From Arcicella rosea (GTDB lineage: Bacteria > Bacteroidota > Bacteroidia > Cytophagales > Spirosomataceae), in assembly GCF_014204325.1 (NCBI RefSeq), contig NZ_JACHKT010000004.1:1-48727 (forward strand): DNA of 48,727 nt. The letters run 5' to 3'. The position numbers and the translations under genes were made by a program. This document shows, one piece after another, positions 9,112 through 48,727 of this stretch; the first letter of the stretch is position 1; each line of letters starts with the position of its first letter. The notes under the pieces were generated by a model. That model was not told the DNA's origin, made no database searches, and was given only the letters and a program-made list of their open reading frames with translations.

Positions 9112-10326
9112 ATGAACTCAATCCAATATCAATATAAACCTGAAAACTTTCGGCTTTCTGATCCTAACAAACATCAATTGAAGGATTTAAAATCGGAAGA
9201 AATGATTTTATCACTTGGTCCTCAGCACCCATCAACGCATGGAGTTTTGAGAATGGAAGTGGTTTCTGATGGTGAATTGGTGGTGGATGTTGTGCCACAT
9301 TTGGGTTATTTACATCGCTGTTTTGAAAAACATGCTGAGTCATTACCATTCAATCAAATCATTCCTTATGTAGATAGAATGGATTATTTAGCAGCCATGA
9401 ATTCAGAACATGCTTATGTAATGGGTGTGGAAAAACTCTTAGATTTGGAAGGGAAACTCCCCAAACGCATTGAATATATTCGTGTTTTAGTAGCAGAATT
9501 AAATCGTTTGGCTTCGCACTTTGTCGCTGTGGGTACTTATGGTTTGGATATTGGTGCTTACACTGCTTTTTTGTGGGTAATGCGTGACCGTGAGCATATT
9601 CAACGATTATTAGAATGGATTACTGGAGCAAGAATGCTCTATAATTATATTTGGGTAGGTGGTTTATTTTATGATTTACCCGTAGGTTTTGAAGAACGTT
9701 GTACAGAATTTATCAATTACTTAAAACCTAAAATGGTTGAGTTAAGAGAATTGATTATCGAAAACAAAATCTTCATTCAAAGAACTGCCAATGTTGGCGT
9801 ACTGCCAATGGCTTTGGCAATCAATTATGGTTGTACAGGGCCAGTACTTCGTGGCTCAGGACTAAAAGTAGATTTACGCAAAGTAGATGGCTATTCGGTT
9901 TATCCAGAATTAGATTTTGATATTCCCGTAGGTAAAGGCGAAATGGGAACAGTAGGCGACTGTTGGGATAGAAACTATGTGCGAGTACAAGAATGTGATG
10001 AATCTATCAAGATTATTGAACAATGTTTAATCCAGCTCACGAACGACCATAAACGTACTATCGAATTCAATCCGCAAGCGTTAGTCCCTAAAAAAATTCG
10101 TCCGCAAGCGATGGATTTATATACACGTGCCGAAAACCCCAAAGGAGAATTAGGTTTCTTCTTCCGTACAGATGGACGTTCGGATATTCCTGTTCGTTTA
10201 AAAGCAAGAGCTTGTTCGCTACATAATTTATCAATTATTCCAGAAATCAGCCGTGGAGCGATGTTAGCAGATTTAGTAGCCATCATTGGCTCAATGGATT
10301 TAGTAATGGGCGAAGTAGATAGGTAA
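9112..10326 (+). CDS. nuoD: NADH-quinone oxidoreductase subunit D (solitary copy)
   Basis: NuoD is the 49-kDa subunit of respiratory complex I. It helps form the quinone site in the peripheral arm on the cytoplasmic side. The motif LGPQHPSTHGVLR (residues 35-47) with its quinone-site histidines is present, as are HLGYLHRCFEKHAE, MDYLAAMNSEHAY and the C-terminal GEVDR that ends the family. The 404-aa length is complete. No other nuo gene lies in this window, so the gene is detached from the usual nuo cluster, either as a split cluster or as a second copy. Its TAA stop codon lies within the first bases of the REP-like palindrome that follows. Confidence 0.95.
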   Translation: MNSIQYQYKPENFRLSDPNKHQLKDLKSEEMILSLGPQHPSTHGVLRMEVVSDGELVVDVVPHLGYLHRCFEKHAESLPFNQIIPYVDRMDYLAAMNSEHAYVMGVEKLLDLEGKLPKRIEYIRVLVAELNRLASHFVAVGTYGLDIGAYTAFLWVMRDREHIQRLLEWITGARMLYNYIWVGGLFYDLPVGFEERCTEFINYLKPKMVELRELIIENKIFIQRTANVGVLPMALAINYGCTGPVLRGSGLKVDLRKVDGYSVYPELDFDIPVGKGEMGTVGDCWDRNYVRVQECDESIKIIEQCLIQLTNDHKRTIEFNPQALVPKKIRPQAMDLYTRAENPKGELGFFFRTDGRSDIPVRLKARACSLHNLSIIPEISRGAMLADLVAIIGSMDLVMGEVDR

Positions 10327-10525
10327 CACGGGTTTCCAACCCGTAAAAAACAAGAAGTACAAGTTAAAACTCATAATACAGAACCGTAGCACGGGTTTCC
10401 AACCCGTAAAAAACAAAAAACGAGTTGAAAACTCGTGGTACAGAACCGTAGCACGGGTTTCCAACCTGTTATAAACAAAACACGAGTTGGAAACTCGTTT
10501 TACAGAAGTTTCCAACTCGTGCTAC
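10323..10525. repeat. REP-like palindrome cluster 1 (between nuoD and the 234-aa gene)
   Basis: This cluster has three main units. Each unit pairs a hairpin ACGGGTTtccAACCCGT with a second hairpin ACGAGTTggaAACTCGT, bounded by GTAGCAC and GTGCTAC inverted ends. Clean stems sit at 10328-10344, 10391-10407, 10420-10436, 10453-10469 and 10482-10498. Degenerate arms lie between and after them. The cluster fills the gap between convergent genes and probably doubles as a two-way terminator. The same element recurs at 11681, 15606, 16385 and 16528. Confidence 0.85.
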
Positions 10526-10528
10526 AAT

Positions 10529-11233
10529 TCAAACCTTCAAACCTTTAATTAATTTATATTCTACAGAACTCACCCCATATTGACTTTTCACGGATTCCTT
10601 AATACGTTGAGTCGCCTCAGAAAGCTGTTCAAATTGAGTATTGCGTAAATCAGCACTCACTTTTAGTAATCCATAAGTACTTGCCACAACATTATTAGCT
10701 TGATTGATGGCTGTAATCTTCGCTTGAAGAGTAGGAATCTTGATAACTTCATTGCTAGGGTTATAATTTGCCCCCAAACTGCTAAGAATACTAACGATGT
10801 CGGTGAAATTTTGCGTTTTACTACCATAAGAAAGCTCCGCCTGGCTAATACTGTTCCCATTTTCTCCAGCTTTTCCTTTTGAAACCTTATCCCCTCTGAT
10901 TTTAACGGCAATCGCAGTAATGTCTGATACCTCTTTGGCATTTTTCCCAAGCTTTGCCCTAACTGTAGCCAAAATTGGGCTGATGAGTTTATCTACAGAG
11001 GTAGCTTCTTTAGAGAAATGGTTGAGCCTAGTTTCCACAGCGGCAGAATAATTTGCCTTTTTGCTGATAACATCAGCATTGGTAGTTCTGATAGATTCGA
11101 GCAATAAATCGTATTGCTCGATAGTAGTGTCGGCAGTTGGGGCGAGGTAGCCAACAAAACTTTTTAACTGAGTGGAAATCGTGGATGCGTTCGCAAGTTT
11201 TGCCCCGAAGGTTGCTTCTGTAGTAGATGCCAT
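10529..11233 (-). CDS. 234-aa protein of unknown function, copy 1 (array-linked)
   Basis: I do not recognise a described function. The protein is soluble in appearance: there is no signal peptide or membrane helix, and predicted content is mostly helical. It aligns without gaps over its full length with the 234-aa protein at 43333-44037. The most conserved blocks are the N-terminus TTEATFGAKLANA, the middle SPILATVRA-LGKNAKE and SYGSKTQNF, and the C-terminus QRIKESVKSQYG with EYKL-KGLKV. A Lys/Gly-rich stretch near residues 112-125 (DKVSKGKAGEN) looks like a flexible linker. The gene points away from a tandem array of 21-bp units starting 138 bases upstream. A Type IIG-like enzyme gene begins on the far side of that array. 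REP-like palindromes border the block. Confidence 0.75.
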   Translation of the reverse strand: MASTTEATFGAKLANASTISTQLKSFVGYLAPTADTTIEQYDLLLESIRTTNADVISKKANYSAAVETRLNHFSKEATSVDKLISPILATVRAKLGKNAKEVSDITAIAVKIRGDKVSKGKAGENGNSISQAELSYGSKTQNFTDIVSILSSLGANYNPSNEVIKIPTLQAKITAINQANNVVASTYGLLKVSADLRNTQFEQLSEATQRIKESVKSQYGVSSVEYKLIKGLKV

Positions 11234-11235
11234 GA

Positions 11236-11257
11236 GTAGATTTATTTAAAGGTGAAA
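11236..11257 (-). promoter_or_regulatory. Conserved leader of the 234-aa gene, copy 1
   Basis: On the coding strand, TTTCACCTTTAAAT followed by a loose TCTAC lies 15-25 bases before the ATG. The same block at the same distance precedes the second copy (44041-44062), although the sequence further upstream differs. Conservation of a non-coding stretch between otherwise diverged copies suggests a translation or promoter element. It does not match a -7 TAnnTTTG box well. Confidence 0.45.
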
Positions 11258-11371
11258 TATTTGATAAACTGTAGCATAAATTTATCGATAAAAGCCCTAA
11301 AGTACCAATAAAAAAACGCCTTATTTTTAGTACAAACATTTATTAATCAGTTATATAGATAGTAAAATACT

Positions 11372-11674
11372 CATCTTGTTTGATGAAATAGCCATCTAGT
11401 AAAATGAAATGACCATCTTGTTTGATGAAATAGGCATCTAGTAAAATGAAATGAGCATCTTGTTTGATGGAATAGGCATCTAGTAAAATGAAATACCCAT
11501 CTTGTTTGATGAAATAGCCATCTAGTAAAATGAAATGCTCATCTTGTTTGATGGAATAGGCATCTAGTAAAATGAAATACCCATCTTGTTTGATGAAATA
11601 GGCGTCTAGTAAAATGAAATGAGCATCTTGTTTGATGAAATAGGCATCTAGTAAAATGAAATACCCATCTTGTT
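11372..11674. repeat. Tandem array 1: 14 full 21-bp units in 42-bp pairs
   Basis: Fourteen complete 21-bp units run from 11372 to 11665, and a partial unit ends at about 11674. Two types alternate strictly. Type A begins CATCTTGTTTGATGAA and type B begins CATCTAGTAAAATGAAAT, so the full period is 42 bp. Most variation is in the last three or four bases (agc, agg, gac, gag, acc, gct), apart from a few a/g changes. Each unit has CAT at positions 1-3 and ATG at 12-14, about one helical turn apart. There are no spacers of unique sequence. The array lies between the divergent 234-aa gene and the restriction-modification gene. Confidence 0.9.
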
Positions 11675-11680
11675 GTTTTT

Positions 11681-11737
11681 TTACGTGTTGGAAACCCGTT
11701 GTACAGCTCATCAGTAGCTCGGGTTTCCAACCCGACA
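11681..11737. repeat. REP-like palindrome cluster 2
   Basis: There are two hairpins. The first is an imperfect ACGTGTTggaAACCCGT and the second is CGGGTTtccAACCCG, preceded by GTAGCT in place of the usual GTAGCA. The cluster separates the 21-bp-unit array from the leader of the restriction-modification gene. It is the most diverged copy in the window. Confidence 0.7.
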
Positions 11738-11826
11738 AAAATAAAATCGCTATTCCTTTCCACAACTTCAACTATATTATTCTTGAAACTTCTAACTTTA
11801 CTAATCTTAAACAAGCACAAGATTCT

Positions 11827-14800
11827 ATGATTAAAATTACCCAAAAGTCGTTTTCGACATCTATCAAACCCGCCCTCAAAAATAAAGTCATTGCTACTGA
11901 AAGTTTTCTGCATTTCGAGCAAACACTTGTACAGAAATATGCCCTCTTGAACGAGAAAGAATCGGAAGAAAATCAGAAAAAATTAATGGTTGATTTTTTA
12001 GAAGAAGCCTTCTATACTCCTAATTATCATATCAATACTAAAGGCAGAAACGATACTGTAATTCACAAAGGTAAAAGTCCCAAAGATACAGTAGGGGTAA
12101 TTATTGAAGCCAAGAAAACCCATTCTCTTGAAATGATAAGCGAAGCCAAACCCAATGTGAAGGCTTTGCACGAACTTATCTGGTATTACTTCAACGAAAG
12201 AGAACACAACCACGAAATCTGTCATCTTATCGCTACTGATTTTTATCACTGGTTTATTTTTGATGAGAATGAATTCGATGATAAGTTTTATCAAAATACC
12301 AGCTTCAAAAAACTTTATAAAACTGCCAAAGACCATGAAAAAGGCTCGGCTTGGTTTTATGATGAAGTTAAAAAGCTACTTATTACCAGTGATATTGACT
12401 TATTTTTCAATTATATCGACTTCAAAGACTTAATTGGCAATGAAAAAATCAATAAACTTTCTAAAAGAGCAAAGGCTGAACTGTATAAAATACTCTCGCC
12501 AGAGCATTTACTCAAACTCTCTTTCAGCAACGATAGCAACCAACTCAACCAACGCTTTTATCACGAACTCCTCCATATTATAGGTTTGGAAGAAGCCAAA
12601 GAAGAAAGTTCTAATAAAAAAATCATCAGAAGAGTAAAAGACATCACTCGCCGAAACGAAGGTTCTTTACTCGAAAATACCATTAATGAACTCGAAGTTG
12701 ATAATGTTTTAGGGCAATTGTCTAATCCAGAAGCCTTTGGAAATACGACCGAAGAACAACTTTTTAGCGTTGGTCTCGAACTCTGTATTACTTGGCTCAA
12801 TAGAGTACTTTTCTTAAAACTATTAGAAAGCCAACTCATCAAATACCACAACAACGACTACTCAAAAGCCTTTTTGCATAGTGCTTTGATTCAGGACTTT
12901 GACGTGCTGAGTGAACTCTTCTTTGAAGTGTTGGCTCGCAGAATACACGAACGAAAACTGTCTGTTCAAAAACTCTTTGGGGATATTCCTTACTTGAATA
13001 GTTCGCTCTTTGAACTGACAGAACTGGAACAAAAAGCCCTAAAAGTTAAAGATTTAAAAGACCGACTTACCATTCCTTATTACGACAAAACCGTACTGAA
13101 AGACCCCAATGGCAAACGTTCGGTCACAGGCGAAAAAAATACGCTGGCTTACCTCTTGGCATTTTTAGATGCTTATAGTTTTGGTTCAGAAGATACAGGC
13201 GATAGTATCCAAGACCAACCCAAAGACCTTATTTCCGCTTCGGTGTTGGGCTTAATCTTTGAAAAAATCAATGGCTACCGTGATGGTTCTTTCTTTACGC
13301 CCGGCTTTATTACGATGTATATGTGCCAAGAAACCATTCGTAGAGCAACCGTACAAAAGTTTAACGACCACTATAAACTACAACTCAAAGATTTTGAACA
13401 GCTAAAAGAACATATTGAATTTACCGACAAACAAGTAAGGCAAGAAGCCAATACCCTTATCAATAGCCTCCGCATCTGCGACCCTGCTGTGGGTTCAGGA
13501 CATTTTTTGGTTTCGGCACTCAACGAATTAATCCAAATCAAGTACGACCTCGGCGTATTACAGTACCAACATTCGGGCGATAGAATCAGTAAGGCTTGGC
13601 TCATCAGTATTGATAATGACGAACTCAGAATTGTCGATAAAGAAAACCAAGAGCCTTTTGTATATAATTTCCGCAATCCAGATGCTCAGGCTTTACAAGA
13701 AAGCCTTTTTTTAGAAAAGCAATTACTCATTGAAAATTGTCTTTTCGGGGTGGACATCAACCCCAAATCTGTTAGTATTTGTCAGCTTCGTTTGTGGGTA
13801 GAATTATTGAAAAATGCTTTCTATAAAACTACGCCAGAAGGAAAAAAAGAGTTGGAAACCTTACCCAATATCGACATCAATATCAAAACGGGCAATAGCT
13901 TGGTAAGCAAATACCCCTTAGATACTGATTTGAGCAAAGTACTCAGAAGCATCAAATACAACATCAACCAATACAGAGGTTTTGTACAAGACTATAAAAA
14001 CGCCAGTAGCAAAGAAGAAAAAAGAGGACTCGAACGCATCATTGCCGACATCAAAGGGAATTTCAGAACTGAAATAGCCAAATACAATAATCCTGAAATA
14101 AACAAACTTAATAAACTCAAAGAAGAACTCTATGTACGCTTTGAAGGGAACTCTCTTTTTGGCTCACAACTCAATGCAAAACAAATCGAAGAAAGAGAAA
14201 AACTTGAAGAGAAAATCAATAAACTCGACCAAGAAATCAAAGACAGCATAGATTCGCCCATCTATCGCAACGCTTTTGAATGGCGTTTTGAATTTCCAGA
14301 AGTATTAGACGACACAGGGAATTTTATCGGCTTTGATGTTGTGATTGGTAATCCACCGTATATCAAAGGTGGAGAATTTACAGAGTTGAAACCTTTCCTT
14401 CAAAAAGACTTTCCGAATACTTTCACAGGAAATGCTGATTTGTATGTCTATTTTGTTGAAAGAGGTTTACAAATCTTAAAAAAAGAGCGTTTTTTCAGTT
14501 ATATCATTCCTAATAAATGGATGCGTGCCAGCTATGGATTAAACCTTCGTAAGTATTTAAAAACAAAACAATTACATAAAATTATTGATTTTGGTGATTT
14601 ACCTGTTTTTGAAGAAGCAACTACCTACCCAAGTATTTTTGTACTGAGTAATACTATTCCAAGGCATTTTCTAAGTATTGCTAATGTAACTACTTTAGCA
14701 TTTACAAGTGGTATAGAAAACTATTTGAATGAAGTATCTTTTGAAACATCGCATGAATATTTTGAAGACGAAGGTTGGCTACTATCTGATTTAAACACTC

Positions 14801-15609
14801 AGAAACTTGTTCAAAAACTTAAATCAACAGGAAAGCCACTCTCAAAATTTGTAGAGAATAAAGTGTTTTATGGAATTAAAACAGGCTTGAACGAAGCCTT
14901 TGTAATTGATGCCGATACAAAAGACAGATTAATCGCTGAAGATAAAAGTGCTGCTGAAATTATTAAACCATTTTTGGCAGGCAGAGAAGTAAAAGGCTAT
15001 CAAACACCAAAAGCTGAACAGTTTTTGATATTGTTTGAAAAAGGGTTTACTAATAAAAACAAAGGCGATTTTGAAGGAGAAACGTGGTTAACAAATCAAT
15101 ATCCGTCAATATTCCAATACCTAAAACCATTTGCAAAAAAAGCTTCGGTACGTTCTGATAAAGGAGAATATTGGTGGGAATTAAGAGCTTGTGATTATTA
15201 TAAAGAATTTGAGCAGGACAAAATCATTTATCCAAATATTTGCAGAAAGCCAGAATTTACCTTTGATGTAAACAGACTTTATGCAAACCAAAAGTGTTTT
15301 ATAATTGCCAAAGACGATAAATATTTATTAGGGGTTTTAAATAGTAATGTTATTTACTTTTTATTCAAAAAGCTACTTCCAGAACTAAGAGGAGGATTTT
15401 ATGAACCTAACTATGCTATTTTAAAAGATTTCCCAATTCCAAAACCAGATGCAGAAACAGCCTCTTTAATCATAGAAAAAGTAGAAAGTATCTTAATACA
15501 AAAGCGAGCAAATCCGCAAGCCGACACCAGTGCGATAGAAGCCGAGATAGACGATTTGGTATATAAGCTTTACGATTTAAGCGAAGAAGAAATATCTATC
15601 ATTCAGTAA
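11827..15609 (+). CDS. Type IIG-like restriction-modification enzyme (Eco57I-type N6-adenine methylase)
   Basis: This is a large single-chain protein of 1260 aa from the ATG at 11827. The N-terminal part has a plausible PD-(D/E)xK nuclease core: Asp76 or Asp87 followed by IIEAKK with Glu94 and Lys96. A helical middle leads to a gamma-class N6-adenine methylase with SAM-binding motif DPAVGSGHF near residue 552 and catalytic GNPPY near 842. The C-terminal 250 residues resemble a target-recognition domain. Such enzymes cut and methylate DNA from one polypeptide and defend against phage. The frame is open back to 11656, but that part reads through a REP palindrome and is unlikely to be translated. 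The stop codon lies inside the next REP element. Confidence 0.88.
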   Translation: MIKITQKSFSTSIKPALKNKVIATESFLHFEQTLVQKYALLNEKESEENQKKLMVDFLEEAFYTPNYHINTKGRNDTVIHKGKSPKDTVGVIIEAKKTHSLEMISEAKPNVKALHELIWYYFNEREHNHEICHLIATDFYHWFIFDENEFDDKFYQNTSFKKLYKTAKDHEKGSAWFYDEVKKLLITSDIDLFFNYIDFKDLIGNEKINKLSKRAKAELYKILSPEHLLKLSFSNDSNQLNQRFYHELLHIIGLEEAKEESSNKKIIRRVKDITRRNEGSLLENTINELEVDNVLGQLSNPEAFGNTTEEQLFSVGLELCITWLNRVLFLKLLESQLIKYHNNDYSKAFLHSALIQDFDVLSELFFEVLARRIHERKLSVQKLFGDIPYLNSSLFELTELEQKALKVKDLKDRLTIPYYDKTVLKDPNGKRSVTGEKNTLAYLLAFLDAYSFGSEDTGDSIQDQPKDLISASVLGLIFEKINGYRDGSFFTPGFITMYMCQETIRRATVQKFNDHYKLQLKDFEQLKEHIEFTDKQVRQEANTLINSLRICDPAVGSGHFLVSALNELIQIKYDLGVLQYQHSGDRISKAWLISIDNDELRIVDKENQEPFVYNFRNPDAQALQESLFLEKQLLIENCLFGVDINPKSVSICQLRLWVELLKNAFYKTTPEGKKELETLPNIDINIKTGNSLVSKYPLDTDLSKVLRSIKYNINQYRGFVQDYKNASSKEEKRGLERIIADIKGNFRTEIAKYNNPEINKLNKLKEELYVRFEGNSLFGSQLNAKQIEEREKLEEKINKLDQEIKDSIDSPIYRNAFEWRFEFPEVLDDTGNFIGFDVVIGNPPYIKGGEFTELKPFLQKDFPNTFTGNADLYVYFVERGLQILKKERFFSYIIPNKWMRASYGLNLRKYLKTKQLHKIIDFGDLPVFEEATTYPSIFVLSNTIPRHFLSIANVTTLAFTSGIENYLNEVSFETSHEYFEDEGWLLSDLNTQKLVQKLKSTGKPLSKFVENKVFYGIKTGLNEAFVIDADTKDRLIAEDKSAAEIIKPFLAGREVKGYQTPKAEQFLILFEKGFTNKNKGDFEGETWLTNQYPSIFQYLKPFAKKASVRSDKGEYWWELRACDYYKEFEQDKIIYPNICRKPEFTFDVNRLYANQKCFIIAKDDKYLLGVLNSNVIYFLFKKLLPELRGGFYEPNYAILKDFPIPKPDAETASLIIEKVESILIQKRANPQADTSAIEAEIDDLVYKLYDLSEEEISIIQ

Positions 15610-15722
15610 CACGGGTTTCCAACCCGTAAAAAACAAAAAACGAGTTGAAAACTCGTGCTACAGAACCGTAGCACGGGTTTCTAACCCGACAAAAAACAAA
15701 ACGAGTTGAAAACTCGTGCTAC
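15606..15722. repeat. REP-like palindrome cluster 3
   Basis: Two complete double-hairpin units (ACGGGTTtccAACCCGT plus ACGAGTTgaaAACTCGT, then a copy with one change, GGGTTtctAACCCG) fill the gap between the restriction-modification gene and the transposase gene. The first bases, GTAACACGGG, supply the TAA stop of the upstream gene. Confidence 0.85.
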
Positions 15723-15746
15723 AGAAATATATAACCATCTACGAAT

Positions 15747-16388
15747 ATGAAAAAGCAATTTTACAGAAGAAACTTACCTCATTTACAACCGATAGGCGGA
15801 ACATTTTTTGTTACTTATAACCTTGACGGAAGTATTCCCAAAGCTGTTTCCGACCGTTGGAAAGAAGAGTATGCTCAAGAAAAAGCAAGGATTATACAAA
15901 CTTCAAAAAATATCAATGAAGATTTAGATAAACTTGGCAGACGTGATTTTGGCAAAAGAGATAAATTCTATGATGCTTATCAAGGGGGAAATCATTACTT
16001 AAAAGAAGATGCTTTTGCTAAGATTGTAGCAGAATCTTTACACTTTTGGGATAATAAAAAAATAGAACTTTATGCCTATTGCATCATGTCGAATCATGTA
16101 CACATTGTAGTAAGATTGTATGATGAAACAGAAATTGATTCGCCTTTTTATTTAGAAGACTATATGCACTCTATTAAACGACACTCTGGTTTTGAGTGTA
16201 ATAAGCTTTTAGGAAAACATAGTCCTTTTTGGCAAGATGAAAGTTATGACAGGCTTGTCCGTGACCGAGATGAGTTGCATCGAATTTTGAACTATGTCTT
16301 AAATAATCCAGTAAAAGCAGGCTTGTGTAATACAAAGAAAGACTGGAAATGGTCGTATATCAAAGAGATTTATAATGACATTATGTAG
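15747..16388 (+). CDS. REP-associated tyrosine transposase (RAYT), Y1/HUH family
   Basis: The 213-aa protein has the IS200-like Y1 transposase fold. The HUH metal-binding motif is in SNHVHIVV (His117 and His119). The likely catalytic Tyr167 sits in DESYDRLVRD, and the family tail RILNYVLNNPVKAGL follows. The N-terminus (LPHLQPIGGTFFVTYNL) is typical of RAYTs. These enzymes cut single-stranded DNA at REP hairpins and are thought to spread them through the genome. The gene is bracketed by the very palindromes it would act on, with cluster 3 before it and clusters 4 and 5 after it. It looks intact. Its TAG stop coincides with the first bases of cluster 4. Confidence 0.92.
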   Translation: MKKQFYRRNLPHLQPIGGTFFVTYNLDGSIPKAVSDRWKEEYAQEKARIIQTSKNINEDLDKLGRRDFGKRDKFYDAYQGGNHYLKEDAFAKIVAESLHFWDNKKIELYAYCIMSNHVHIVVRLYDETEIDSPFYLEDYMHSIKRHSGFECNKLLGKHSPFWQDESYDRLVRDRDELHRILNYVLNNPVKAGLCNTKKDWKWSYIKEIYNDIM

Positions 16389-16430
16389 CCGTAAAACGGG
16401 TTTCCAACCCGTCAAAATGCACGAGTTGGA
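16385..16430. repeat. REP-like palindrome cluster 4 (cut short by duplication)
   Basis: It begins GTAGCCGTAAAACGGG and contains the hairpin ACGGGTTtccAACCCGT. The second hairpin is interrupted after ACGAGTTGGA by the start of the duplicated block. Its GTAG provides the TAG stop of the transposase gene. Confidence 0.8.
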
Positions 16431-16531
16431 ACTATATCATCTTAAATAATCCAGTAAAAGCAGGCTTGTGTAATACAAAGAAAGACTGGAAATGGTCGTA
16501 TATCAAAGAGATTTATAATGATATTATGTAG
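16431..16531 (+). pseudogene. Duplicated C-terminal fragment of the RAYT transposase
   Basis: About 100 bases repeat the end of the transposase gene, encoding LNNPVKAGLCNTKKDW onward to a TAG stop. The fragment has no start codon and lacks all catalytic residues. It is a by-product of the local tandem duplication, not a separate gene. Confidence 0.85.
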
Positions 16532-16585
16532 CCGTAAAACGGGTTTCCAACCCGTCAAAATGCACGAGTTGGAAACTCGTGCTAC
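16528..16585. repeat. REP-like palindrome cluster 5
   Basis: This is a complete two-hairpin unit, ACGGGTTtccAACCCGT plus ACGAGTTggaAACTCGT, ending in GTGCTAC. It marks the right edge of the REP-bordered accessory block. The metal-efflux operon starts about 100 bases further on. Confidence 0.85.
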
Positions 16586-43332: not shown

Positions 43333-44037
43333 TCAGACCTTCAAACCTTTCACTAATTTATATTCAACTGACGCTACCCCATATTGACTTTTTACAGATT
43401 CTTTGATGCGTTGCGTAACTTCAGACAACTTTTCATAATAAGTATTACGCTGGTCAGATACTGTTTTCAATGAACCAAGCGTAGTGGCAACATTGATATT
43501 AGCCGTGTTGATTGCATCAAGCTTGGCTTGTAAAGTAATCAGCTTTACATTTTCATTAGCAGGATTATAAGCAGTTCCTAAACTGACTAAAATACTGATT
43601 ATATCTGAAAAATTCTGGGTTTTGCTTCCATAAGAAAGCTCTGACTGGCTTATGGTATTAACACTTTCTCCTTCTTTTGCTTTAGGACTATTCTTTCCTC
43701 TAATTTTCTCGGCGATAGCAGAAATATCAGATAGCTCTTTGGCATTTTTCCCTAGTGAAGCCCTAACTGTAGCCAAAATTGGACTAATCAGTTTGGCGAC
43801 AGAATTTGTTTCGTTGGCAAATAATTTAAGCCTTGTTTCTACTGCGGAAGAGTAACTGGCTCTCTGGGTAATAACCTTAGTATTTTCGGTTTTAGTGGAA
43901 GCAATTAAAGCATCGTAAGCCTCAATTGTAATTTCGGATGTTGGAGCAATATAACCTGTAAAACCTTTTAAGTGTGTTGAAATGGTGATTGCGTTAGCAA
44001 GTTTTGCACCGAAGGTAGCCTCTGTTGTTGTTGCCAT
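43333..44037 (-). CDS. 234-aa protein of unknown function, copy 2 (array-linked)
   Basis: This is a full-length, gap-free paralogue of the product of 10529-11233. It shares TTEATFGAKLANA at the N-terminus, SPILATVRASLGKNAKE and SYGSKTQNF in the middle, and the highly conserved QRIKESVKSQYG tail. It is probably helical and cytoplasmic, with a Lys/Pro/Glu linker near residues 112-124 (GKNSPKAKEGES). Like copy 1 it points away from a tandem array of 21-bp units starting about 137 bases upstream. A defence-type operon begins on the far side of the array. The paralogue and architecture together make a recurring cassette. Function is not known to me. Confidence 0.75.
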   Translation of the reverse strand: MATTTEATFGAKLANAITISTHLKGFTGYIAPTSEITIEAYDALIASTKTENTKVITQRASYSSAVETRLKLFANETNSVAKLISPILATVRASLGKNAKELSDISAIAEKIRGKNSPKAKEGESVNTISQSELSYGSKTQNFSDIISILVSLGTAYNPANENVKLITLQAKLDAINTANINVATTLGSLKTVSDQRNTYYEKLSEVTQRIKESVKSQYGVASVEYKLVKGLKV

Positions 44038-44173: not shown

Positions 44174-44383
44174 CATACCACAAAATATTATTAGCATATC
44201 ACTAAATCAAAGCCTCATATATAAAGATGGAATTAGCATATCACTAAATGAAAGACTCGTATATAAAGATGTAATTGGCATATCACTAAATGAAAGACTC
44301 GTATATAAAGATGCAATTGGCATATCACTAAATAAAAGCCTCGTATATAAAGATTAAATTGGCATGTCACTAAATCAAAACCA
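44174..44383. repeat. Tandem array 2: 21-bp units in 42-bp pairs, different sequence from array 1
   Basis: One degenerate unit (44174-44194) is followed by nine clear 21-bp units from 44195 to 44383. Two types alternate: CATATCACTAAATGAAAGAC and CGTATATAAAGATGTAAT, giving a 42-bp period. A further decayed unit fits at 44153-44173. CAT or CGT at positions 1-3 and ATG at 12-14 recur, as in array 1, although the rest of the sequence differs. The array lies between the divergent 234-aa gene and the TIR gene. It has stop codons in its frames and is not coding. Confidence 0.9.
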
Positions 44384-44526
44384 CCTTTAACCTTTTTGTA
44401 AAGCCTTGACAGACATTGCTTTTACCGTTTAATAAAATTAAGACTTCCTTCAAGTTTTTGTTTTTTAATTTCAGTAACTTGGATTTAATTAAATCAAATA
44501 GATAAGTAGCTACTAATAAATTGAAT

Positions 44527-45951
44527 ATGTTTGAATATATCATTACAGCCATTCAGCAAGAAAAGTGCATATTGGTTTTAGGTCCAGAGCTTTATCATTT
44601 TGAAGGAAAAAGTTTTGATACTTCTATCAAGGAAGCTTATGATCAATATTATGAGCAATTACCTCCTCGGGAAAAAGAAAAATTAGGCAATCAAAAGATT
44701 GAGTTTGTCAATTATCCATTTTTAATGGAGGAATTGATGAGTCATAATTCCGAAATGGCTGAAATCCATATTCACAATTTTGTTAGAGTGTATTTTAGAC
44801 AAAGAATAGAGTGGATGGACTATTATAAGCAAATTGCTGCATTACCCATTCCTTTAATAATTTCTTTGTTGCCTGATGATAATCTTCAAAATGCTTTCAA
44901 TGAAGTATATCCTGATTCTTTTGATGTAAGTAGTTACTCTCGTAAAAATGAAAATTTAGCACAGATTAATGAAAAGCCCACTTCAAAAAAACCACTTATC
45001 TACAAGCTTTTGGGTGATATGGCAAACAATAACTATGATGTCAATTTTACTTTTACAGATTGGTTTAGTTATTTCAAAAATATTTTTGGTAAAAAGCCCT
45101 TACCTGTTGAAATACTTTCCTTATTGAATGAGAATCCTGTCATTATCTTTCTGGGGGTTCGTTTTGAAAAATGGTATGTTCAGTTACTCATTAGGCTTTT
45201 AGTTTCTGATGAAAGCGGAAAGCTAAGAATGGGCAATCGTTTTTCATTTTCTCACATAGTCGAACAAGGCTTAGAAACGCTGGTTTGGAATCGATTTTCT
45301 TTAAATGCAGAACAAGCAAACCCCATAGATTTTTTAAATAGTATTTATAAACAATGTAAAGACAAAGGAATGTTAAGAGTAGCTGAACCCACAAAGGAAA
45401 AAATAAACGCAACAGTTTTTATTTCTTATAACCATCAAAATACAGCCATTGCCGAAAGAGTAAAAACAGATTTAGAGGCTTATGGCATCAAAGTATTAAT
45501 AGACCAAGATAACCCTGTTGGCTTTTCTATTCCAAAATTTATTGATAGAGAAATGGCTAAATGTGATTTGGTTTTGCCATTGATTTCAAAAACTTTCATG
45601 ACTTCTGCATGGGTGGCAATAGAATCACTCACCACAATCTGGGCAAATAAAAAAGTATTGCCCTGTGATGTAGATGATGCTTTATTTGACGGAAAGTTTA
45701 TTGATGAGGCATTTGATTTAGTTGAAGAAAAAAAACAGGCCATTGGAAAACGTATTAATGACAGAAGAAGTAAAGGTTTTGATTCACGAGATTTAACGGA
45801 TATTGAAGAAAGGCTGTTGGACTTAAAAAATAACCTTGCTAAAATTATTAAATTCTTCCAGAATACAAATAGAGCAAACCTACGTGAAGGTAATTATGAC
45901 GAAGGCTTTGCACAAGTAATTAAATCTATCAAAAAGCAAATTGCCTCCTAA
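44527..45951 (+). CDS. SIR2-like (degenerate) plus TIR domain protein
   Basis: The 474-aa protein has two parts. Residues 1-280 follow the SIR2-like order: ILVLGPELY near 15 (in place of a Gly-rich NAD loop), IISLLPDD near 112 (in place of TxNYD), LIYKLLGD near 157 and VIIFLGVRFEKW near 205. The usual NADase residues seem to be missing. Residues 294-445 form a TIR domain (VFISYNHQNTAIAERVKTDLEAYG), with candidate catalytic Glu366 in AWVAIESL. TIR domains in bacterial immunity often destroy NAD or make signalling nucleotides. A TTG two codons upstream is an alternative start. The gene is followed after 1 base by a STAND NTPase gene. Confidence 0.82.
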   Translation: MFEYIITAIQQEKCILVLGPELYHFEGKSFDTSIKEAYDQYYEQLPPREKEKLGNQKIEFVNYPFLMEELMSHNSEMAEIHIHNFVRVYFRQRIEWMDYYKQIAALPIPLIISLLPDDNLQNAFNEVYPDSFDVSSYSRKNENLAQINEKPTSKKPLIYKLLGDMANNNYDVNFTFTDWFSYFKNIFGKKPLPVEILSLLNENPVIIFLGVRFEKWYVQLLIRLLVSDESGKLRMGNRFSFSHIVEQGLETLVWNRFSLNAEQANPIDFLNSIYKQCKDKGMLRVAEPTKEKINATVFISYNHQNTAIAERVKTDLEAYGIKVLIDQDNPVGFSIPKFIDREMAKCDLVLPLISKTFMTSAWVAIESLTTIWANKKVLPCDVDDALFDGKFIDEAFDLVEEKKQAIGKRINDRRSKGFDSRDLTDIEERLLDLKNNLAKIIKFFQNTNRANLREGNYDEGFAQVIKSIKKQIAS

Positions 45952-45952
45952 T

Positions 45953-47791
45953 ATGAATGAAGAACAGGCTATCGAAGTATATCGTTATCCGGGGGTAACA
46001 CCATTTTCAACCGAGCATAAAGAGTTGTTGATGGGGAGAGAAAAGGACATTGAGGCATTTTATCAATTATTGACACTGAAACAATTGATAATTCTATATG
46101 GTAAAAGTGGCTACGGAAAAAGTTCTTTAATTAATGCAGGAGTAATCCCCAAATTAGTAGAAGCTGAAACAAACAAGAGTGTTTACTTTAATATTAGACT
46201 ATATGCTAAAAACAAAGAGAAAAAAGAGCCAAGTCCTATTGAAAAACTCCTTGAAAAATTGAAGGAGAATGTACTAGAACAGTCTTTTCTGCATCATGCT
46301 AAAATCAATATAACAGATGAGTTTCAATTATGGTATTGGCTAAAAAATCATCAATATGCCTCTAATGATGCAGCTATTATTTTATTTTTTGACCAATTTG
46401 AAGAATTATTTAGCTATGATAAAAAAGAAGAAATCATTCCATTTGCTGAACTCTTAGGCAAAATGCTCTTTCAAGATTTACCACACGATTTTTTAGAGGA
46501 TGCCTACCAAGAATTATGGAAAGCCAAAGAAAAAGAGACAAACCCAGAACGTTTACAAGCATTAGATAATGACATTAGTCTATTATACAAAAAGCCAAAT
46601 ATCAAATTGGTTTTTTCTTTACGTTCAGATAGATTATCCTTATTAAATCAGCTAACAGACTATCTTCCTAATCTTCAACAAAACTATTATGAACTAAACC
46701 CCATTTCAGAAAATGCCGCTCGTTTAGCTATTACACAGCCAGCCCAAATTATTAATGAAAAATTTACTACGCCTGAATTTGTTTTTGAAAAAGAAGTAGT
46801 AGAAACTATTATTAAAAGGGTAAAGAATACACATGATGGTAAAATAGATACGGCTACCTTACAAATTATCTGCCGTTTTATTGAAGAACAAAAAGTGTGG
46901 AAAGAAAAAAAACTGAGCATTACAGGGGATGTATTAGGAGACATAACAAATATTTTTAAAAACTTTTATCAAACAAGCCTCAGTAAACTCAACAAAGAAG
47001 AAAAAGCCATAGCCAGCCAAACGATTGAAGAAAAGTTTATCCAAAATAACCAGCGTATTCCTTTTGCAGGCGACCACCTCAAGCAAGAGTATCATTTGAG
47101 CCAAACGGTATTAGATGAATTAGAAAAAAGCACCCTACTCCGCAAAGAAAGAGACACCGCTGGACGCTTTATCTATGAAATTGGACATGATACTTTGATT
47201 GAACCGATTTATGAATTTGCTGAGCAAAGAAAAATTGCACAGCAATTAAAAATACAGGAATTAGAGAAAAAACAATTAGCTATTGAAATTCAAAACAAGC
47301 ATAAAGAATTAGAATATCAGCGACTGCAAGAAGAAATAAGCAAGCGGCAAGCAATACAGATTCGACAAGAACTTGAAGCTCAAAAATTGCAACAAGAACT
47401 TGATAAACAGAAGCAAAAAGAACAAGAGCTTAAAAATCAAAAGCTACAACAAGAGTTAGATTCGAGAAAAAAAATTACTAAAATATATCTTAGTGTAGGA
47501 GTTCTATTTTTATTTTTAATAGTTTGGATATACAACTTGTGGCGAACAACTGAATCAGAAAAAGAAAAGGTAGAACAAGCAAAAGAAAATGCCCAAAAAA
47601 CGTTATACCAACTTTATTACCAACAAGCCAAAACTGTAAAAGACAATGGCGATAATATTTTGCGAAATAAAGATGTTGAAACTGCCCGATATTATTATGA
47701 CTCTGCCAATGTAATATTGGAAAAAATACCCGAAACCGATAGCATAGCCACAGAGCTGAAAAGTGAACTACAAAAATTATTAAAGAAATGA
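45953..47791 (+). CDS. nSTAND-type NTPase with coiled coil and membrane helix
   Basis: The 612-aa protein opens with the nSTAND1-like YRYPGVTPFSTEHKELLMGRE. Walker A is GKSGYGKSS (50-58) and Walker B is IILFFDQFEELF (142-153). A winged-helix region (IGHDTLIEPIYEFAEQRK) follows, then a long Gln/Glu/Lys coiled coil (about 425-505). One membrane helix (about 510-531) leads to a tail of about 80 residues. STAND proteins act as switches that assemble when a sensor detects a trigger. In single-chain relatives this helix is followed by a linker and WD40 repeats. Here those are a separate gene overlapping by 4 bases. The upstream TIR gene is the likely effector. Confidence 0.85.
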   Translation: MNEEQAIEVYRYPGVTPFSTEHKELLMGREKDIEAFYQLLTLKQLIILYGKSGYGKSSLINAGVIPKLVEAETNKSVYFNIRLYAKNKEKKEPSPIEKLLEKLKENVLEQSFLHHAKINITDEFQLWYWLKNHQYASNDAAIILFFDQFEELFSYDKKEEIIPFAELLGKMLFQDLPHDFLEDAYQELWKAKEKETNPERLQALDNDISLLYKKPNIKLVFSLRSDRLSLLNQLTDYLPNLQQNYYELNPISENAARLAITQPAQIINEKFTTPEFVFEKEVVETIIKRVKNTHDGKIDTATLQIICRFIEEQKVWKEKKLSITGDVLGDITNIFKNFYQTSLSKLNKEEKAIASQTIEEKFIQNNQRIPFAGDHLKQEYHLSQTVLDELEKSTLLRKERDTAGRFIYEIGHDTLIEPIYEFAEQRKIAQQLKIQELEKKQLAIEIQNKHKELEYQRLQEEISKRQAIQIRQELEAQKLQQELDKQKQKEQELKNQKLQQELDSRKKITKIYLSVGVLFLFLIVWIYNLWRTTESEKEKVEQAKENAQKTLYQLYYQQAKTVKDNGDNILRNKDVETARYYYDSANVILEKIPETDSIATELKSELQKLLKK

Positions 47792-48727
47792 GAATAGCCT
47801 TGACACTCATAAGCATATTGCTCAATATCGCAACATTGGCACAAAAGACAGACCAAAAGCCAAATGAAATTAGCTTTGAACAAAAAATACAAATAGCTGA
47901 TAAGCTTTTTAAAGAAGGTAAAACCATAGAAGCCATACAAAGCTATAATATAGCCCGTATTTTGGCTGGGACTGATAATGCTAAACATACAATTGTGGAC
48001 AAGAGCATTGAAGCTGTATTTAAAGCCATAGAAAAACAAAAAGAGGAAGCAAAACAAAATGAGCGGAAAGCCAGATTAGCAGAAGCTATTGCAAAGGAAA
48101 GTGAACAAAAAGCTAAAATAGCGACTAATAACGCCAATGCTCTTTACTTGACATCTGAAGCAGAAAAAATAAACCCTATACAAGGCTTACGTTTAACAGA
48201 AAAAGCCCTTACTAAAACCAAAGATACTAATCTCATTAAAACCATTAAACAAGCTAATAAGACTATCTTTAACCAAAGTAATACTCATCAGTGGAGAGAG
48301 AAAAATAGGTTTGACGATATTTTTAGTTTGGGCTCAGATAAAATTATTGCTTTTTCCCAAAATAGTAAATGGTTCATAGCGAAAGATATGAATCAAAATG
48401 CCAAAGTCTGGTCATTGGAACAAGAAAAACAAGCTGACTTTTTAAATAAAGAGAAAAATATTCGTTCTGCTACTTTTTCCCCAGATAGTAAATGGCTCGT
48501 AACAGAAGATGTGAATCTAAATGCCAAAGTCTGGTCGTTGGAAAAGGAAATACAAACTGACTTTTTTAAGGAAAGGGTATTTTCTGCTACTTTTTCCCCA
48601 GATAGCAAATGGCTCATAACAGAAGATATGAGTCTATATGACAAAGTCTGGTTAGTGGAAAAAGGGAAACAAACTGACTTTTTAAATGAAGAAAAAAAGA
48701 TATTTTCTGCTACTTTTTCCCCAGATA
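47788..48727 (+). CDS. Exported WD40-like repeat protein (cut by the window end)
   Basis: The frame starts at ATG 47788, overlapping the STAND stop (ATGA), and runs to the window edge. It has a signal peptide (MRIALTLISILLNIATLAQ), a TPR-like stretch (ADKLFKEGKTIEAIQSYNIA), a Lys/Glu coiled coil, and a linker ALYLTSEAEKINPIQGLRL that matches the segment preceding WD40 repeats in single-chain nSTAND proteins. Propeller repeats of 39-41 residues follow, each with SATFSPDSKWL and KVWSLE. At least three are seen before the end. Adjacent repeats are very similar at DNA level. It is probably the sensor part of the operon. Confidence 0.85.
   Translation, partial: MRIALTLISILLNIATLAQKTDQKPNEISFEQKIQIADKLFKEGKTIEAIQSYNIARILAGTDNAKHTIVDKSIEAVFKAIEKQKEEAKQNERKARLAEAIAKESEQKAKIATNNANALYLTSEAEKINPIQGLRLTEKALTKTKDTNLIKTIKQANKTIFNQSNTHQWREKNRFDDIFSLGSDKIIAFSQNSKWFIAKDMNQNAKVWSLEQEKQADFLNKEKNIRSATFSPDSKWLVTEDVNLNAKVWSLEKEIQTDFFKERVFSATFSPDSKWLITEDMSLYDKVWLVEKGKQTDFLNEEKKIFSATFSPD

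Follow-up and report, generated by a model that had tools for sequence, protein, structure and literature searches.

What kind of unit is formed by a small protein gene, an array of short direct repeats beside it and a defence gene beyond the array, and how far does this arrangement extend? The window studied here, a stretch of 48,727 nt analysed as a whole, poses the question twice. Gene 1 (10529..11233, minus strand) is an intact open reading frame whose translation is the 234-aa protein P0001, and its paralogue gene 2 (43333..44037, minus strand) encodes P0002, also of 234 aa and 69% identical to P0001. Array 1 (11365..11674), located 131 bp 5' of gene 1, is made of 15 head-to-tail units of 21 bp with a 42-bp A/B alternation; Tandem Repeats Finder reports a period of 42, 7.4 copies, 90% match and 0% indels, and at 21-bp resolution all 14 of its 14 spacings are exactly 21. 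Array 2 (44190..44379), 152 bp 5' of gene 2, has 10 units of 21 bp with a 42-bp alternation (period 42, 4.5 copies by the same program). In both arrays the 42-bp period corresponds to two related 21-bp units, and the motif of array 2 has a similarity of 0.67 to that of array 1, as compared with a mean of 0.45 in a permuted-column null.

An earlier note on this DNA had described two such arrangements of gene, array and defence gene, and both are confirmed by the open reading frames and by Tandem Repeats Finder, which lengthens array 1 from the 303 bp given there to 310 bp. The large plus-strand restriction-modification gene reported beside array 1 codes for a type IIG enzyme 3' of the array (11827..15609, plus strand; PDLC03612, E 2.7e-275), and the TIR/STAND operon reported beside the second array consists of a TIR_2/SIR2_2 gene followed by an nSTAND1 gene, 3' of array 2 (44521..47791, plus strand; domain matches). 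The open reading frame of the type IIG enzyme is listed from 11656, a position within array 1, and contains an in-frame ATG at 11827; the latter is the likelier start, which places it some 150 bp away from the array.

The association of gene and array is found well beyond the window. Among 87 homologue loci, 72 show a period of ~21, 42 or 63 in one of their two 450-bp flanks, whereas in a control set of 527 single 450-bp blocks located more than 1.5 kb away self-similarity was detected in 11 at any lag and in at least 4 at 21, 42 or 63. The two occurrences in the window are thus beyond chance, as had been argued, and most homologues do have the 21- or 42-bp array for which the earlier note suggested searching. 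The remaining 15 loci have no array at the threshold applied; three of the 15 have one flank too short, and at one of them, L022, another program found an array. Two loci (L042 and L045) have a period of 22. With a stricter extraction, an array was recovered in 62 of 82 loci, 53 of them downstream and nine upstream of the gene. The upstream position, initially taken as part of the layout, is true of the 234-aa subfamily, while in the majority of proteins, of ~245 aa, the array is mostly downstream. The home genome itself (5.3 Mb in 77 contigs, the window being the start of contig C4) encodes six further, more distant members of ~245 aa, each followed closely on its 3' side by a 42-bp array.

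The units of these arrays share, in the sense of the gene, a weak common skeleton, roughly GCA-N-TTAGAA-N-TAT-N-GC, and their sequences are otherwise locus-specific. A degenerate motif aligned over 62 arrays reached a best score of 436 against 229–246 in ten permuted nulls, with 62 seeds tried on the real arrays and 10 on each permuted null. Their register is rigid despite the variable bases: across 24 arrays of seven types, 306 of 308 steps measure exactly 21 bp. Protein divergence and motif divergence are correlated (Mantel r 0.456, 0 of 999 permutations, 59 arrays), so that the array motif co-diversifies with the protein, something that shared ancestry of linked DNA could explain too. Within genomes, orthogonality between the arrays of paralogues was not seen (0.477 for 15 pairs versus 0.480 for 1184 other pairs). 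Dyad symmetry is absent from the units, 26 of 62 arrays scoring above their null (0.470 on average, versus 0.473 for the null), which rules out a palindromic operator. A CRISPR array is ruled out as well, since the units abut at 21-bp spacing and have no spacers.

The proteins encoded beside these arrays form an unnamed family of Bacteroidota with a predicted all-helical, duplicated fold. The AF2 model of P0001 (pLDDT 92, pTM 0.81) is all-helical and internally duplicated, and in an alignment of 77 proteins (A3) both halves contain a Y-x-P motif. The net charge of the proteins has a median of +8 (range -6 to +15), with a median of +5 in the C-terminal 30 residues. P0001 has no Pfam or NCBIfam match above cut-off; for the family, searches by sequence gave nothing solid in Pfam, NCBIfam, PHROGs or PDB, and Foldseek gave no PDB or BFVD (viral) match at E<=0.001 and no recognised DNA-binding fold. 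The family profile matches 29 of 247 genomes of the class and P0001 as sole query finds matches in 5 of 99 relatives, the home genome being counted in both figures. A scan of named genomes provided 50 loci, nearly all labelled Bacteroidota, the three exceptions carrying the label Neisseriaceae (two loci on one contig of a metagenome-assembled genome, MAG) or Ignavibacteriales (one locus, also in a MAG). Two family members had no tblastn match in 72,556 plasmid records (E 1e-5; E 1e-3), and the phage collection and a set of viral contigs selected by pattern yielded none either.

Arrays also exist as solo elements, away from any gene of the family. In the home genome, array 1 has six solo arrays of its own type and array 2 has one; a joined query with eight arrays retrieved at least one relative for each of the other array types, the weakest being that of the L015 type (75% over 91 bp). 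Same-type solo arrays occur in all three genomes tested, home genome included, with three extra sites (one of only 97 bp) in one of the two other genomes and one extra site in the other. None of 35 home-genome arrays (21 solo and 14 further ones) overlaps an open reading frame extending more than 200 bp beyond the array, all being intergenic. Tallied by eye, four of the 21 solo arrays run along the preceding gene and 11 against it, four lie between convergent genes and two between divergent genes, and they therefore have no fixed sense relative to transcription. The 120-bp flanks of five array types contain no consistent leader, tail or terminal repeats, the few high-scoring pairs being REP elements or residual units. 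Of the long tandem arrays in an 800-kb portion of the home genome, 14 of 17 are of the 21-bp class; in an equal length from a congener devoid of the gene the figure is 3 of 19. Scaled to 5.3 Mb, the former figure implies that the home genome may hold roughly 90 such arrays. Further examples in the home genome are located at L142:5300-5510, L193:3035-3305, L206:17831-18313 and L220:18963-19325. Arrays of 21/42 bp were also observed in the gene-free congener G007 (L252:15516-15930 and L243:7915-8043), where they perhaps belong to another protein family; their presence there indicates that the array class is not exclusive to the P0001 family.

Do the arrays, then, mark defence genes? In the home genome, 8 of 29 arrays (8 cis and 21 solo) flank defence-type genes, a raw count obtained by scanning 25 of the 40 genes flanking solo arrays, some of them picked for their defence-like look. 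Six of these eight arrays lie 5' of the gene. Besides the type IIG enzyme and the TIR/SIR2 and nSTAND pair of the window, the matches are to Ppl (E 1.9e-26), Septu PtuA/PtuB (E 3.9e-114 and 3.3e-76), PifA (E 1e-52, over part of the protein only), HEC-02A/B (E 1.9e-104 and 3.2e-26), PD-T4-5 (E 2e-18) and Kiwa KwaA (E 1.2e-59). Four other matches were left out of the eight by judgement: a UvrD-type helicase resembling GajB (2.6e-26), a methyltransferase resembling mad2 (8.7e-14), a patatin (2.7e-8) and a TIR-like second gene (2.8e-6). A possible ninth case, outside the count, is L016, with a methylase/endonuclease pair by appearance. The proximity to defence genes noted earlier holds for the two loci of the window and for six further arrays, but does not define the cassette, since the other six gene-plus-array cassettes of the home genome, read by eye, have for the most part metabolic or other genes as neighbours. 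Scans covering several genomes do not establish such proximity as a rule either: among cassette-adjacent genes of the home and other genomes (80 of the 89 listed), 25 listed PADLOC families (of 98) match 1 of 80 genes each, and genes farther away match PADLOC too, with up to 2 of 90 per listed family (90 of 217, picked by hand), these being per-family figures and not per-gene counts. The data hint at a link with defence, one that involves the arrays more than the gene.

Within the genus, gene and arrays are absent together: the family is present in one of eight genomes, and the seven congeners have neither the family gene (0 of 7) nor any of eight array types (0 of 7), three of the seven having a completeness of 90% or more and a contamination of 5% or less, while the same eight array types do match the home genome. 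At the argD locus, BLAST coordinates place 1862 bp between the conserved genes in the home genome versus 591–1144 bp in all seven congeners, four of which were aligned, all without the family gene. By this comparison of sequences with empty sites, one insertion of gene plus array is shown, at argD, the only site at which the comparison was informative; the genes flanking the solo array of contig C24 are non-adjacent in relatives. In addition, a unit of ~1.2 kb, 96.5% identical, occupies different sites in two genomes. A scan for attC-like palindromes at loci outside the window found them at 6 of 78 loci (two of these near-duplicates) versus 1 of 78 shuffled ones, and 0.93 Mb of the home genome contain two attC-like matches. 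Some cassettes may therefore be carried by integrons, as far as such palindromes can tell. Imperfect palindromes of this type were seen at L076:5001-5129, L024:2696-2822 and L094:5428-5613; of these, the one at L076 alone was observed directly at the border of the unit.

Arrays of similar period stand next to genes of other families. Like the P0001 family, DUF6261 (PF19775) proteins have ~240 aa and a predicted helix order of short-long-short occurring twice (with a pTM of only 0.55). At three of six DUF6261 loci the gene is preceded on its 5' side by an array with a period of 41 or 20/41, as in L104 (gene 1315-2022, array 991-1201), L107 and L108, and the other three show none; solo arrays of the L104 type occur on contigs C29 and C28. 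DUF6261 was detected in 3 of 198 genomes of the phylum, home genome counted. Its kinship with the P0001 family is unproven at the sequence level: P0001 and P0002 give no match at E<=1, below the family gathering score of 27 bits, 6 of the 77 family members match it weakly (best E 0.0021), and profile comparison yields a probability of 8.9%. A second family of the home genome (L205:8658-9278 and L190:6881-7405) has arrays of the 21-bp class 251 and 321 bp 5' of the gene. The L205 protein has an fn3-like tail with a weak fn3 match (E 0.0045), and the L190 copy carries a stop within the region of similarity. Two of the 14 arrays of this class counted above in the 800-kb portion of the home genome stand 5' of genes of this weak-fn3 family, suggesting that the array class may serve several protein families.

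To account for these observations we tentatively propose, at slightly less than an even chance, a system of Bacteroidota composed of a protein and a phased array, in which the protein binds the array and modulates adjacent accessory genes. Among the roles put forward in the earlier note, the evidence most favours binding of the array, itself putative, together with organisation of DNA. The protein would bind the units as double-stranded DNA, with one module per two helical turns, and its copies would follow one another head to tail along a single face of the helix, the arrangement to be expected when an asymmetric site recurs rigidly every two turns. Binding to the double strand is favoured by units without dyads or RNA structure and by solo arrays lying in either direction, and binding to DNA by the exact phasing, the co-diversification, the same-type arrays in trans and the joint presence or absence of gene and array. 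The protein would thereby coat arrays in cis and in trans and may bring them together. More speculatively, the coated array might modulate neighbouring genes that are often horizontally acquired, defence operons included, most likely by silencing or insulation, and gene and array might persist as a mobile accessory unit. The patchy presence of the family argues against an essential role in chromosome organisation. A broader version, about which we are distinctly more doubtful, is that each of three families (that of P0001, DUF6261 and the one with a weak fn3-like tail) reads arrays of its own, phased at 21 bp, as pairs of protein and satellite, the coated arrays tying together or controlling scattered accessory loci, prominently anti-phage ones.

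Several of the same facts lend themselves to a quite different account in which the array is a selfish satellite that spreads between intergenic sites, for instance via circles arising by recombination between units, with the protein aiding its spread or persistence and the defence genes marking only variable regions that tolerate insertions. The patchy distribution in the class (29 of 247 genomes) and the genus (1 of 8), the gain at argD, the nearly identical unit at different sites in two genomes and the many solo copies, with 35 of 35 checked arrays intergenic, all suit it; nevertheless, Pfam and NCBIfam scans of the family reveal no nuclease, recombinase or transposase domain, the five array types examined share no leader, tail or terminal repeats, and no transposition was seen, so we regard this account as unlikely, though deserving attention. 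The arrays might instead act as hotspots of recombination or insertion, where repeats of the same type exchange homologously and capture accessory genes, the protein protecting them or promoting the exchange. The defence-type genes flanking 8 of 29 arrays and the excess of attC-like palindromes over shuffled loci are in line with this; the former, however, is the raw count mentioned above, and the empty-site comparison concerns a single locus, which leaves hotspots a rather improbable explanation.

The two remaining accounts involve expression of the arrays themselves. Transcribed repeats bound by the protein, loosely in the manner of type III toxin-antitoxin or sponge RNAs, would fit the position of most cis arrays directly downstream of the gene (53 of 62) and their mostly uniform orientation, the forward fit to the skeleton being better than the reversed one in 48 of 53 downstream arrays, although upstream arrays show no preference (4 of 9). 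By contrast, of the 15 solo arrays whose neighbouring genes share a direction, 11 run antisense to the gene before them, fold z-scores are about 0 on both strands of the 62 arrays, with no RNA-fold excess, and Rfam matches in the window are limited to two tRNAs; we consider an RNA role very unlikely. Type III toxin-antitoxin systems in particular were rejected because the repeats are not structured and the array lies 3' of the gene in those 53 of 62 cases, even if it is 5' in the window. Still less credible, to the point of being negligible, is that the arrays encode repeat peptides of 7 or 14 residues. It is true that 21 and 42 are divisible by three, that one or more frames are open in 51 of 62 arrays, that four of seven home-genome types keep one frame open in every array of the type, and that array 1 has one, open in 5 of the 7 arrays of its type. 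Yet open frames are expected whenever a short stop-free unit is repeated, and two loci have a period of 22; as a general account, coding is refuted by the 11 of 62 arrays without open frame, by array 2, which has stops in all six frames, and by three DUF6261-type arrays (period 41), which also lack one.

The proposed pairing of a binding protein with a phased array can be set beside several known systems. RAYT transposases are HUH enzymes whose genes are accompanied by cognate palindromes, the REP sequences, in cis and, in many copies, in trans. The P0001 family resembles them in having a gene with cognate repeats in cis and in trans, but RAYT/REP is ruled out by the absence of an HUH/Y1 domain from the family and by the non-palindromic units. 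The initiators of iteron plasmid replication are encoded beside directly repeated sites spaced about two helical turns, a further likeness; by contrast, the P0001 family has several types per genome next to chromosomal-type genes, is predicted to be all-helical, without recognised winged helix, and has no match in the plasmid collection. A plasmid iteron/Rep or partition system was therefore discarded (0 matches for two family members in 72,556 records). Closer in genomic setting is BrickBuilt, a minisatellite/MITE of Porphyromonas gingivalis with dispersed intergenic tandem arrays of a 23-nt unit that has conserved and variable positions, and with a leader and a tail ending in inverted repeats, for which the accessible portion of the paper names no partner protein (PMC4596501). 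As far as this portion goes, BrickBuilt and the 21-bp arrays share a unit of roughly two helical turns and an intergenic location in Bacteroidota genomes, while the latter differ by their near-exact 21-bp register, their linked protein family and the lack of a common leader or tail. The TAACTGA heptamer repeats, according to the part of their description available, are intergenic direct repeats found in some Bacteroidetes too, with a 7-bp unit mostly just 5' of start codons in the main species and with S1, Csp or Csr proteins as proposed binders (PMC4679880); compared with what is described there, the 21-bp arrays have a longer unit and a gene linked to each array. Among open-licence papers we found no description of a system of gene plus 21-bp array. 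A small helical protein encoded beside its own array, with matching arrays scattered elsewhere and sometimes near anti-phage genes, suggests a protein-and-repeat system of an undescribed kind on the bacterial chromosome.

If the protein does read the array, chosen chromosomal sites would be marked with phased repeats in a modular manner that spreads horizontally, with several distinct protein-array pairs coexisting within one genome. This would offer a new handle on the control or collection of accessory and defence genes, would explain one class of minisatellites dispersed over bacterial genomes and might supply DNA-tethering modules for laboratory use.

The window contains other repeats as well. 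REP-like repeats of the GGGTTTCCAACCCGT type occur at 10323-10507, 15606-15726 and 16297-16574, around a Y1 transposase gene (Y1_Tnp, 15747-16388) whose 3' end carries an almost perfect duplication of 143 bp, and similar REP sequences are found beside some 21-bp arrays. Behind the nSTAND gene lies an array of 123-bp units (48350-48727 of the window), which continues for ~2 kb beyond it (L018:98-2074) and perhaps represents repeats of a coding region.
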